Shown here piece by piece: positions 3,256 through 6,794 of a stretch of DNA of 64,000 nucleotides. The notes beneath the pieces were generated by a model, which was not told where the DNA came from, searched no databases, and worked only from the letters and a program-made list of their open reading frames with translations. A program made the position numbers and the translations under genes. The DNA is from Flavobacterium johnsoniae. GTDB taxonomy: Bacteria; Bacteroidota; Bacteroidia; Flavobacteriales; Flavobacteriaceae. The stretch is from contig NZ_CP103794.1 of NCBI RefSeq assembly GCF_030388325.1, positions 930,001 through 994,000 of the forward strand. Reading direction: 5' to 3'. Within the stretch, counting starts at the first letter, position 1, and every line of letters starts with the position of its first letter.

Positions 3256-3486
3256 TTAAGTTTCCTTAACGGTAATAATCTTCACTGGACAAGCTTTTGC
3301 AGCCAATTCACAACTTTCGACAATCGCATGATTTGGAGATTTTAATGTAAAGAATCCTTTTGCATTTTGAGAATGAATCAAAACCGATTTTCCATCTTTT
3401 TTTGACATCTGAAAATGCACTGGATCCATTTCAACGCAATAGTTACAACCAATGCATTTATCTCTTTGTAAAGTAACGACAACCAT
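3256..3486 (-). CDS. 4Fe-4S ferredoxin linked to TrhP
   Basis: A 76-residue ferredoxin. Cys11, Cys14 and Cys17 form CIGCNYC, and Cys66 in CPVKI supplies the fourth ligand of a single [4Fe-4S] cluster. Cys59 is an additional cysteine. The start overlaps the trhP stop by one base (TAATG), implying translational coupling. From knowledge of the family, tRNA uridine hydroxylation by the U32 enzyme TrhP depends on iron-sulfur biogenesis, and the E. coli ferredoxin YfhL has been linked to the process. An electron-donor role for TrhP is therefore a reasonable inference here. Confidence 0.9.
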   Translation of the reverse strand: MVVVTLQRDKCIGCNYCVEMDPVHFQMSKKDGKSVLIHSQNAKGFFTLKSPNHAIVESCELAAKACPVKIITVKET

Positions 3487-4727
3487 TACGCCTCAACAAT
3501 TTTATACAATTTGTCAGACATTCTGATTCTGAATGGTAATTTCAAACTACAGTCGTCTCCCTTCGTAGCTTTTACTCCTGAAATATCATTTACAAACATT
3601 TCATCAATAATCATTTCCTGAGCTCCTGTACTTGGTCCTGTAATTAAAATTTTATCTCCAATTTTAATATCGTAAGCTTCAATTTTAAATTGTCCAACTT
3701 TTGCTTTTGGGAAATAATGTATTCCTTTTCCAACATAAACCTTTTTCTGCGTTGCCGCTGAACCTGGAATATCGCTCCATTCTCCTAATTCCTGACCTAG
3801 ATAATATCCAGACCAGAATCCGCGATTGTAAACCGTTTCTAAAGCTTTCATCCAAACTGCAGTTTTTTCTTTGGAGAAAGTTCCGTCATAATAAGCATCA
3901 ATCGCTTCACGATACGTCTTGGTTACCGTTGCTACATATTCAGGCGCACGGCCACGTCCTTCAATTTTTAAAACTTTTATTCCAGAATCAATAACCTGAT
4001 CTAAGAAATCCAAAGTACACAAATCTTTTGGCGACATCATGTATTCGTTATCCAATTCGATTTCGAAACCAGTTTCCTGATCGATAACGGTATATTTTTT
4101 TCGGCAGTTTTGTTTGCACGCGCCACGATTTGCAGATGAATTGTGCGAATGCAAACTCAAATAGCATTTCCCTGAAACCGCCATACATAAAGCACCATGA
4201 CCAAAGATTTCAATTTCAACCAAATTTCCGTTCGGGCCTTTGATCTGTTCTTTCTCAATTCGGTCGGTGATATTTTTTACTTGACGTAAACTCAATTCTC
4301 TGCTCAAAACCATTGTATCAGCAAATAAACTGTAGAATTTAATGGTTTCTATATTTGTTACATTTAGCTGAGTTGAAATATGAACTTCCATTTCGATTGA
4401 TCTTGCCATCGCAATTACGGCTTGATCTGATGCAATTACCGCTGTAATGTTTGCTCCTTTGGCTTTTGTCAATAATGTTTTTACGACAGATAGATCGTGA
4501 TCGTAAATAATGGTGTTTAAAGTCAAATAGCTTCGAACGTTTTTGGCTTCACAGCGATTGGCAATTTCTTTTAAATCATCAATCGTGAAATTTACTGTTG
4601 AACGTGCACGCATATTAAGTTGCTCAACTCCAAAATATACGGAATCACAGCCATTATCTAAAGCAGCCTGAAGCGACTCAAAATCTCCCGCTGGAGACAT
4701 GAGTTCAATTTTGTTGGTAATTGTCAT
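3486..4727 (-). CDS. trhP: TrhP-type tRNA uridine-34 hydroxylase (peptidase U32 family)
   Basis: A 413-residue U32-family protein. The family signature reads E173-x-F...GALC181...GKC188YLS. With Cys204 and Cys208 (GACKQNC) it gives the four cysteines expected to hold an iron-sulfur cluster. TrhP proteins use prephenate as hydroxyl donor to make 5-hydroxyuridine at the wobble position of certain tRNAs. Residues about 328-413 form the U32 C-terminal domain. This domain is nearly duplicated at the end of TrhO (5436-6794): both end in PFRIR.SDKLYKIV. The ferredoxin gene follows with a 1-base overlap. Older annotations call the family collagenase-like protease; the Cys pattern and the TrhO neighbour favour tRNA modification. 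Confidence 0.9.
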   Translation of the reverse strand: MTITNKIELMSPAGDFESLQAALDNGCDSVYFGVEQLNMRARSTVNFTIDDLKEIANRCEAKNVRSYLTLNTIIYDHDLSVVKTLLTKAKGANITAVIASDQAVIAMARSIEMEVHISTQLNVTNIETIKFYSLFADTMVLSRELSLRQVKNITDRIEKEQIKGPNGNLVEIEIFGHGALCMAVSGKCYLSLHSHNSSANRGACKQNCRKKYTVIDQETGFEIELDNEYMMSPKDLCTLDFLDQVIDSGIKVLKIEGRGRAPEYVATVTKTYREAIDAYYDGTFSKEKTAVWMKALETVYNRGFWSGYYLGQELGEWSDIPGSAATQKKVYVGKGIHYFPKAKVGQFKIEAYDIKIGDKILITGPSTGAQEMIIDEMFVNDISGVKATKGDDCSLKLPFRIRMSDKLYKIVEA

Positions 4728-4750
4728 TTTTGATTCTATTATTCAAATGA

Positions 4751-4758
4751 CAAAAATA
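4751..4758 (-). promoter_or_regulatory. Candidate -7 element for trhP
   Basis: On the minus strand this reads TATTTTTG, a match to the Bacteroidota -7 element TAnnTTTG, 24 bp upstream of the trhP start. No clear -33 TTG was found at the expected spacing. Confidence 0.4.
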
Positions 4759-4845
4759 ATGTGAGTATAGATTAGATTTCTATGATATATATCATAGTCT
4801 ATATTTTAAAATTATTCGCAAATCGTTACACAATCTTTATCAAAT

Positions 4846-4933
4846 ATAGCCCACGGTTTCAACCGTGGGAAACGTATTGTTACGCAACGTTGAGGATTCT
4901 CATTGTGTACCCACGGTTGAAACCGTGGGCTAT
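4846..4933. repeat. REP pair (BIME-like) beside the RAYT gene
   Basis: Two 24-bp arms, 4846-4869 and 4910-4933, are perfect inverted copies. Each arm is itself a hairpin (CCCACGGTTTCAACCGTGGG). This nested palindrome, two REPs in tail-to-tail orientation, is typical of bacterial interspersed mosaic elements. It ends 30 bp downstream of the RAYT stop codon, the usual place for a cognate REP. Confidence 0.9.
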
Positions 4934-4963
4934 GTTTATATTGTATTGTGGTATTTTTTGGAT

Positions 4964-5410
4964 TTAACCATTTTGGGTTTTATTTCCAAACCCGTGTAAT
5001 TTTACAAATTCATCAAACTCTTGCTGTCCATTCTTTTTGAGATGATGTTGTTTTTGATTTTTTATATAATTATAAACAACATCTAATTGAGATTCGCTTA
5101 CTGCAAAAGCGGCATAACCAGTTTGCCAAGCGAATTTTTCAGTAATTAGATTTATTCCATTTATACAATGAGAAGATCCTCCTTTCGCTTGACGAATAAC
5201 ATCTGATAGAGATTTTTTCGGATTTAATAAAAATAAAACATGTACATGATCGGCCATTCCGTTAATGATTCTATCAGGGCAATCCAAGTCAATTAATTCA
5301 TCGTGAATATAATCATGCACATTTTTCTCAATTGAAAAATCAATTAATTCCGTACGATTTTTAGTTGCCCAAATGGCATGAATCCATAATTTGGTAAAAG
5401 AATGCGACAT
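4964..5410 (-). CDS. REP-associated tyrosine transposase (RAYT, Y1 family)
   Basis: A 148-residue Y1/HUH single-strand transposase. The metal-binding HUH motif is H55-V-H57, in GMADHVHVLF. The catalytic tyrosine is most likely Tyr115 in YNYIKNQ, with Gln119 four residues on. The length and motifs indicate an intact protein. It lies between trhO and trhP on the same strand and is flanked by a REP pair downstream and a 37-bp hairpin at its start. RAYTs process and disperse REP sequences and are usually single copy and vertically kept, unlike ordinary IS200 copies. Confidence 0.9.
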   Translation of the reverse strand: MSHSFTKLWIHAIWATKNRTELIDFSIEKNVHDYIHDELIDLDCPDRIINGMADHVHVLFLLNPKKSLSDVIRQAKGGSSHCINGINLITEKFAWQTGYAAFAVSESQLDVVYNYIKNQKQHHLKKNGQQEFDEFVKLHGFGNKTQNG

Positions 5411-5446
5411 TGTAAATTAGGGTTTAAAAAAACCGCTAATTTACAA
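5410..5446. repeat. Hairpin at the RAYT/trhO junction
   Basis: TTGTAAATTAG (5410-5420) pairs with CTAATTTACAA (5436-5446), and an inner GGTTT/AAACC pairs as well. It spans the trhO stop codon and the RAYT start codon. It may be a terminator, a translation-limiting structure for the transposase, or a sequence the transposase recognises. Confidence 0.55.
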
Positions 5447-6794
5447 TTTTATACAATTTATCTGACAAACGAATACGAAATGGAACCTCAAAAGTAACCT
5501 TATCACCAATTTTAGCAGTTTGAGTTTCTGCTCCATTAACAATAATTCTATTCAAAACCATTTCCTGATCACCTGTAGTTGGTCCTGAAATTAAGATTTT
5601 ATCACCGCTGTTCAACTCTTGGTTTTCAATAGTAAATTGTCCAACCTGAGCTTTTACATAATAATGTTCCGCTTTTCCAAGAAGTACTTTTTTTACTTTT
5701 ATTTTCTGACGAATATCAGCTGTTTTTTGTGCTGTAGCCAAAGCCGTTTCTGGCAATTCACCTGAGTGTTTGAATTTTAGATTTTCAGATTTTCCTTTTC
5801 TGAATACTTTATTTCCAACTTGTTTTCCAGTTCTTAAACGAACTTGGTCAACTAATGGCATATGGATAATCTCTAAACATTCTGTAGAACAGCAGTTTTC
5901 CATAGCTGCTTTACAATCATCACACTGAATAAACAATAAATGACAACCGTCATTTTCACAATTAGTATGATTATCGCAAGGTTTTCCGCATTGGTGACAC
6001 TGCGAAATAATATCGTCAGTAATTCTTTCGCCCAGACGATTATCAAACACGAAGTTTTTACCAATGAATTTGCTTTCTAAACCTTCTTCTTTCAATTGTT
6101 TAGCGTAATTAATAATTCCGCCTTCTAACTGATAAACGTTTTTGAAGCCTTGGTGTTTAAAGTAAGCACTCGCTTTTTCGCAACGGATTCCTCCAGTACA
6201 ATACATTACCAGATTTTTATCGTCTTTGTGATCTTTAAGCTGTTCGTTGATAATTGGTAAACTTTCCCTAAAAGTTTCAACATCTGGAGTAATAGCGCCT
6301 TTAAAATGTCCAACTTCACTTTCGTAGTGATTTCTAAAATCTACTACAATTGTGTTTGGATCATCAAGGATTTCGTTGAATTCTTTGGCTTTTAAGTGAA
6401 CGCCAATATTAGTTACATCAAAAGTTTCATCGTTTAAACCGTCTGCAACGATTTTATGACGCACTTTGATGGTCAATTTTAAAAAGGAATGATCATCTTG
6501 TTCCACAGCAACATTCAATCGTATGTCTTTCATGAAATCGTAAACTTCCAGAGTTTCTCTAAAAGCTTCAAAATTTTCAGCAGGAACACTCATCTGAGCA
6601 TTAATTCCTTCATGGGCAACATAAATTCTTCCCAATGCATCTAATGCATTCCAGGCAATGAATAAATCGTTACGAAATTGTTGTGGATCTTGAATTTTGG
6701 CATACGCATAGAAAGACAACGTAAGTCGTTGTTTACCCGCATCATCGATCATGATGGCTCTTTCTTCTGCGCTTAAAGTGTTATACAGTTGCAT
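5436..6794 (-). CDS. trhO: TrhO tRNA uridine-34 hydroxylase with U32-type C-terminal domain
   Basis: A 452-residue rhodanese-family protein. Residues 1-120 form the N-terminal UPF0176 domain. Residues about 130-235 form the rhodanese domain with active loop C199TGGIRCEKA. Residues 266-306 are a cysteine-rich stretch (CHQCGKPC...CDDCK...CCSTEC), probably a metal site. TrhO uses molecular oxygen to form 5-hydroxyuridine at tRNA wobble U34. E. coli YceA is about 350 residues. Here residues 369-452 are an extra domain that closely matches the C-terminus of the neighbouring TrhP (VGQF.IE...GDKILI.GP.TG). The RAYT gene lies immediately downstream. Confidence 0.93.
   Translation of the reverse strand: MQLYNTLSAEERAIMIDDAGKQRLTLSFYAYAKIQDPQQFRNDLFIAWNALDALGRIYVAHEGINAQMSVPAENFEAFRETLEVYDFMKDIRLNVAVEQDDHSFLKLTIKVRHKIVADGLNDETFDVTNIGVHLKAKEFNEILDDPNTIVVDFRNHYESEVGHFKGAITPDVETFRESLPIINEQLKDHKDDKNLVMYCTGGIRCEKASAYFKHQGFKNVYQLEGGIINYAKQLKEEGLESKFIGKNFVFDNRLGERITDDIISQCHQCGKPCDNHTNCENDGCHLLFIQCDDCKAAMENCCSTECLEIIHMPLVDQVRLRTGKQVGNKVFRKGKSENLKFKHSGELPETALATAQKTADIRQKIKVKKVLLGKAEHYYVKAQVGQFTIENQELNSGDKILISGPTTGDQEMVLNRIIVNGAETQTAKIGDKVTFEVPFRIRLSDKLYKIVN

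Follow-up and report, generated by a model that had tools for sequence, protein, structure and literature searches.

A C-terminal barrel of U32 proteins on the tRNA hydroxylase TrhO of Flavobacterium: a putative lineage-specific domain transfer

Introduction

Two pathways to 5-hydroxyuridine at position 34 of tRNA (ho5U34) have been described in Escherichia coli, those of TrhO (YceA) and TrhP (YegQ) (PMC6599085). According to passages of that paper, TrhP is drawn with a C-terminal domain, PF16325, and residues E162, C170 and C177 are essential in it; its C-terminal motif is also present in YrrO of Bacillus subtilis. In the same source, trhP is mainly found in gamma- and beta-proteobacteria, and obligate anaerobes, Bacteroides among them, lack trhO; the section on distribution makes no mention of a Bacteroidota U32 protein of the kind described here. 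We analysed a window of 64,000 nt from the 5.32-Mb genome of Flavobacterium johnsoniae (GCF_030388325.1; NZ_CP103794.1, positions 930,001-994,000), in which trhO and the gene for a U32 protein lie close together and their deduced products end in the same type of domain.

In the open-access literature, covered mostly as titles and the first lines of abstracts, with subscription journals and preprints outside this scope, we found no TrhO with a U32 C-terminal domain, and the passages covered give neither a stated function nor RNA-binding data for that domain. Public records already name relatives of the window TrhO as TrhO, with names that leave out the tail, and a YceA-like gene of a Flavobacterium is listed in passages of PMC9723704.

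Results

A domain common to TrhO and a U32 protein

An earlier note on this DNA, made from the sequence alone, had described two open reading frames of 413 and 452 amino acids, with unrelated catalytic parts and C-terminal parts alignable throughout, and our analysis bears it out on all these points (Table 1). Residues 328-411 of the U32 protein align with residues 368-451 of TrhO over 84 positions without gaps, with 55% identity and 73% positives (E = 1e-26, single comparison), and comparison of the two tail profiles gives a probability of 100% (E = 5e-49). A search of the whole genome with the tail, up to an E-value of 10, returned matches at these two genes only. The catalytic bodies differ, with Peptidase_U32 in the U32 protein versus UPF0176_N, Rhodanese and Rhodanese_C in TrhO.

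The predicted models of both tails have nearly identical strand strings and identical best matches in the Protein Data Bank (PDB), with no sign of differing folds. For both, the top match is the C-terminal domain of a U32 protein from Geobacillus (PDB 4he5/4he6, the sole matches at 1e-3 or below for both models), followed by barrels like domain 2 of EF-Tu, so that the tails are predicted to have the fold of the solved U32 domain, an EF-Tu-domain-2-like barrel. Six residues (H11, G38, T41, V53, R76 and D79, in tail numbering) are invariant in 41 divergent TrhO tails; of these, G38, R76 and D79 show no variation among 45 U32 tails either. Within the window, the conserved tail residues H377, R442 and D445 of TrhO match H337, R402 and D405 of the U32 protein. 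Together, alignments and models indicate that the two tails are one homologous domain. As to other carriers, the 120 matches listed out of 1562 are all TrhO or pieces of it, as judged from Pfam domains or name.

The window TrhO scores above the cut-off of the NCBIfam TrhO model (267.8 bits; cut-off, 170) and has the rhodanese CXGGXR motif, as CTGGIRC, at residues 199-205; curated model and motif thus point to an O2-dependent tRNA U34 hydroxylase. E. coli TrhO, with 350 amino acids and, as the earlier note had said, no such tail, aligns with window residues 3-336 only, which suggests that a TrhO complete in itself has been extended by the tail.

Distribution of the tail

The U32 proteins seen carry the tail as a rule, and in TrhO it is a derived, lineage-restricted trait, which agrees with the earlier proposal that one domain moved between the enzymes. 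Of 249 genomes sampled across the family (235 genera), 245 give a match to TrhO; for 30 of these, all of which contain the U32 protein, a best E-value between 1e-24 and 1e-18 agrees with a match to the tail of that protein only, and TrhO is therefore present in 215. The tail is covered in three of the 215, two from the genus of the window and one from another genus (g62), its absence being judged from the best E-value for matches past those listed; the tail is thus not a feature of all TrhO proteins. Two further matches among those listed extend as far as residues 372 and 381, through stop codons. The U32 protein is found in 83 of the 249 genomes, a count that includes one cut at residue 270 and omits a 69-residue fragment where a contig stops, and the complete matches listed include the tail.

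Among 149 Flavobacterium genomes that are at least 90% complete, 148 contain TrhO. The protein carries the tail in 145 of them, is truncated where the contig stops in G031, has no tail in G416 and forms a fusion with the U32 protein in G397. A sample of 395 genomes of the phylum gave 230 TrhO matches, with tailed TrhO in all 24 genomes of the genus, in one g62 genome and in all eight genomes of a second family (f5); the remaining matches listed stop by residue 378. In a search of contigs, the 80 loci listed out of 337 are named Flavobacterium, except two Flavobacteriaceae isolates and one [Flexibacter]. The two f5 genomes placed in the TrhO tree nest inside the genus, which points to transfer.

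Gene neighbourhood and selection

In 70 of the 145 tailed loci of the genus, window included, the U32 gene lies downstream of trhO on the same strand and within 3 kb; one of these is split in two frames (G417:C1:1595160-1596397). Gaps between both genes (n = 69, without the window, and in G417 measured to the second piece) are of 20 nt or less in 38 cases and of at least 100 nt in 26, and in 18 the stop and start codons overlap (-1). Another 74 tailed genomes have no U32 gene. In the remaining one, unlike in other genus genomes that have a U32 protein, the gene lies on a contig apart from trhO (G311:C35:3164-4390; 73% identical), possibly by a separate acquisition. One genome also has a decayed extra copy near an intact one (G339:C16:481319-481795) which, with the split gene of G417, perhaps reflects loss in progress. 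Six of the eight tailed f5 genomes are likewise without the U32 protein, and in the other two its gene adjoins trhO. A constant adjacency of trhP to tailed trhO, a point raised in the earlier note, thus does not hold, since TrhP is missing from about one half of the genus genomes that have the tail.

In other genera, for the 44 cases among the matches listed in which both positions could be read, the genes adjoin on one strand in 38 (trhO first in 32 and the U32 gene first in six), adjoin on opposite strands in one and lie apart in five. Since TrhO is tail-less in these genera, the pairing of the two genes probably predates the tail.

We estimated the ratio of nonsynonymous to synonymous substitution rates (dN/dS) from a codon alignment, by pairs that share ancestry. 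For the 69 genomes with an adjoining U32 gene (777 pairs), the median is 0.135 for the tail and 0.049 for the TrhO body; for the 76 without it (538 pairs; including G311, with its gene elsewhere), medians are 0.162 and 0.063. No pair reaches 1 for the tail. The tail is, therefore, under purifying selection also without TrhP and, considering the 74 tailed genomes that lack TrhP, it does not need this protein.

Origin of the tail

In a tree of 87 columns, 87 TrhO tails (dereplicated from 149) and 60 U32 tails (rows L073, L074, L076 and L077, labelled there as of the genus, belong to other genera) fall on the two sides of one branch, with a support of 84, not starred, in the Shimodaira-Hasegawa-like approximate likelihood ratio test (SH-aLRT). 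The TrhO subclade nearest to the U32 side also groups with the U32 tails in a branch of support 60. We considered that TrhO tails might be renewed by recombination with the adjoining U32 tail, with which they form a tandem repeat, since in some genomes without TrhP they are closer to U32 tails, with mean identities up to 65%; the location of all 87 on one side of the tree does not support this.

The tree of TrhO bodies (52 rows, dereplicated at 90% with chosen rows kept) sets apart 13 tail-less rows from other genera; g62 is at the base of the other group, at an open fork, and G397 and G416 are inside. Because they nest inside tailed TrhO, both have lost the tail. In G416, the tail-less trhO and the U32 gene are one base apart, counted from stop codon to start codon. 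In G397 (locus L063, G397:C22:167608-169935), TrhO is joined through a linker to the whole U32 protein in a single open frame of 792 codons, at the end of which stands the only tail; this fusion is seen in one assembly and is absent among the 120 matches listed out of 2134 protein matches. We rejected it as an ancestral missing link, since the nesting of both genomes indicates secondary loss. Open frames of 777 amino acids for trhO in G222 and G259 (L074 and L073) were also discarded, the loci having separate adjoining frames for trhO (359) and the U32 protein (417).

Identity of the U32 protein

The TrhP equivalog model of NCBIfam is the best of four U32 models for the window protein, which misses the cut-off of each (200.3 bits for TrhP; cut-off, 534). 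Considering that it falls below this strict cut-off, TrhP-like is a safe name. It contains a U32 domain (PF01136, 2.7e-70) in which E173, C181 and C188 align with the essential E162, C170 and C177 of E. coli TrhP; PMC6599085 also gives corresponding residues for RlhA, so that this set cannot separate TrhP from RlhA. The TrhP function given in the earlier note is thus putative. The neighbourhood of trhO, the residues needed in E. coli and the genomes of a third family, f32, suggest that the protein is probably an O2-independent U34 hydroxylase: 79 f32 genomes contain a U32 protein of this kind (E of 1e-70 or lower) and no TrhO match at 1e-9. We guess that f32 are anaerobes, which would fit the remark on obligate anaerobes cited above.

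The earlier note also called TrhP Fe-S-dependent; neither "Fe-S" nor "iron-sulfur" occurs in the main text of PMC6599085 (2019). The window genome contains a second U32 protein (G000:C1:1874461-1875417) in an open frame of 639 amino acids, a length similar to that of E. coli RlhA (653 amino acids).

Other features of the locus

On the minus strand, trhO is upstream, followed by a Y1 transposase gene, which the earlier note leaves unmentioned, and then by the U32 gene (Table 1). The two palindromes by the transposase gene are perfect and are the sole two exact matches to the pattern in the genome. Relatives of the transposase were found by tblastn in 15 of 160 loci, 67-93% identical save one at 45%; most begin some 25-35 nt after trhO, and two of those loci (L211 and L138) are without TrhP. 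The gene looks settled and, from these comparisons, vertically inherited.

Table 1. Features of the trhO-U32 locus, in positions of the 64,000-nt window.
Feature	Position	Strand	Details
trhO, O2-dependent tRNA U34 hydroxylase body (putative) plus C-terminal barrel	5436..6794	-	452 aa; NCBIfam TrhO model, CTGGIRC
TrhO UPF0176_N, residues 25-115	6450..6722	-	Pfam PF17773, 5.2e-23
TrhO rhodanese domain, residues 136-231	6102..6389	-	Pfam PF00581, 4.5e-13
TrhO Rhodanese_C, residues 245-306	5877..6062	-	Pfam PF12368, 2e-21
TrhO variable linker between body and tail, residues ~341-366	5697..5774	-	Junction alignment; BLASTP match of E. coli TrhO ends at 336
TrhO tail, U32-type C-terminal barrel (predicted), residues 367-452	5439..5696	-	Sequence, profile and model comparison
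TrhP-like U32 protein	3486..4727	-	413 aa; Peptidase_U32 2.7e-70; E173, C181, C188
U32 domain, residues 82-312	3792..4484	-	Pfam match PF01136
U32 protein C-terminal barrel (predicted), residues 327-413	3489..3749	-	Sequence, profile and model comparison
Y1 (IS200-like) transposase gene, outside the enzyme pair	4964..5410	-	148 aa; Pfam, NCBIfam; 25 nt after trhO
Two 20-base palindromes by the transposase gene	4850-4869, 4910-4929		Pattern search of genome

Discussion

Our preferred explanation, to which we give a probability of roughly 60%, is that Flavobacterium TrhO acquired its barrel, most likely in a single capture, from the C-terminus of a U32 hydroxylase such as that of the neighbouring gene, and that this barrel acts as a tRNA-handling module in cis. 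The barrel would hold the tRNA for the attached active site, and the rhodanese domain in TrhO, or the U32 domain in the TrhP-like protein, would each present its own chemistry to U34. Since the tail-less TrhO body is complete, the contribution of the barrel would be to affinity or to tRNA choice, with no part in catalysis; that other TrhO proteins are seen without it likewise indicates that it is dispensable for catalysis as such. Sequences and models support the homology of the tails, their fold, their usual carrier family, the restriction to a lineage, the linkage of the genes and the retention under selection without TrhP. Contact with RNA, which the earlier note had proposed, is probable from the predicted fold and the substrate, and the maintenance of the tail in species without a U32 neighbour suggests that the barrel helps to handle tRNA. 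More tentatively, and with somewhat less than even confidence, TrhO may have taken a tRNA-reading domain from its TrhP-like neighbour and kept it independently, in which case the O2-using and the O2-free enzyme would have converged and tRNA selection would be separable from chemistry.

Several observations weigh against this explanation. The other TrhO proteins seen in the family do without the tail, and the branch of G397 and G416 lost it. Its dN/dS is 2.6-2.8 times that of the TrhO body, which speaks weakly for a specific contact with tRNA, and barrels like domain 2 of EF-Tu also bind proteins. With 79 of 144 forks open in the tail tree, the trees favour one capture as most likely, and a second in one subclade is possible. 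Besides its low score with the TrhP model, the window U32 protein has similarly low identities to three E. coli enzymes, RlhA (31%), UbiU (29%) and TrhP (26%), and the hhalign profile comparison with TrhP is weak (E = 0.093 and 0.0061), so that our attempt to assign it by sequence to one of these enzymes failed. Its tail has no match to PF16325 (Peptidase_U32_C), for which nine of 45 U32 tails give weak matches, the best at 0.0077.

If the fold does not serve tRNA, it might serve docking: TrhO and the U32 enzyme would bind the same third partner, be it the methyltransferase of the next step, the ribosome or a tRNA-handling factor. The tail shares the fold of translation-factor barrels, some of which also make protein contacts, and the TrhO tail evolves fast; the window genome, moreover, has a single match to CmoB, under the cut-off. 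However, TrhO acts on tRNA, as the U32 enzyme probably does, and several of the matched barrels come, by their PDB titles, from factors handling aminoacyl- or initiator tRNA, and we consider docking unlikely. A common partner, as suggested in the earlier note, is thus possible, with TrhP itself disfavoured in that role. Alternatively, the tail might hold TrhO and TrhP together as a two-enzyme complex that switches between them depending on oxygen, as the adjoining and often overlapping genes would suggest, along with the single end tail of the fused enzymes in G397 and the tail-less TrhO beside the U32 gene in its relative G416. This appears improbable, considering that 74 genus genomes and six of eight f5 genomes have tailed TrhO without TrhP, that purifying selection persists there, that other genera have adjoining genes with tail-less TrhO and that the fusion is seen in one assembly and among none of the protein matches listed; with half of the tailed genus genomes lacking TrhP, the barrel cannot be a link to TrhP alone. 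The dual-pathway module of the earlier note thus finds partial support: the two genes do form a pair, which probably predates the tail, but the tail is no mark of such a module.

It seems about as improbable that the tail is a neutral passenger of a gene-fusion accident, functionless in TrhO. Its restriction to a lineage, the alignment of TrhO with the tail-less E. coli enzyme, the higher dN/dS and the losses in G397 and G416 would agree with this, but 145 of 148 genus loci retain the tail (a contig end cuts one of the other three), as do all eight f5 genomes, the dN/dS of the tail is well below 1, and it has the six invariant residues, three of them common to the U32 tails.

Returning to capture by TrhO, the comparisons indicate that, in a specific lineage, a domain was indeed transferred between two enzymes that probably serve one pathway. 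It is ordinary in kind, a case of domain shuffling, perhaps between neighbours, and unusual in linking two unrelated chemistries. If the barrel handles tRNA, the genus offers natural experiments, with TrhO tailed, tail-less or fused to the U32 protein and with or without a separate U32 protein, which would help to distinguish the part that selects the tRNA from the part that performs the chemistry in the formation of ho5U34, and the U32 C-terminal domain would gain a testable role. The locus also predicts that Bacteroidota U32 proteins of this kind belong to ho5U34 synthesis.

Comparison with known systems

The body of the window TrhO is 52% identical to that of E. coli TrhO (YceA, PMC6599085) over 335 residues, with the CTGGIRC motif in common, and a sequence comparison with the PDB puts that protein (9j5o) first; the difference lies in the barrel, which the E. 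coli enzyme lacks. E. coli TrhP (YegQ), according to PMC6599085, combines a U32 domain with a C-terminal domain and shares the essential Glu and two Cys with the window U32 protein, despite the low identity and the lack of a PF16325 match in the window tail. In B. subtilis, passages of the same paper describe two U32 partners, YrrN and YrrO (TrhP1 and TrhP2), as needed for the ho5U34-derived 5-methoxyuridine (mo5U34); set side by side by description, the window has one U32 protein near TrhO. The solved C-terminal domain of the Geobacillus thermoleovorans U32 protein (PDB 4he5/4he6) matches the tails in fold at 14-19% identity and sits on a U32 protein, whereas in Flavobacterium such a domain is found on a rhodanese-type enzyme as well. 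The barrels of EF-Tu, eEF1A, IF2 and related translation factors have the same fold, which the tail enzymes would carry without the GTPase part.

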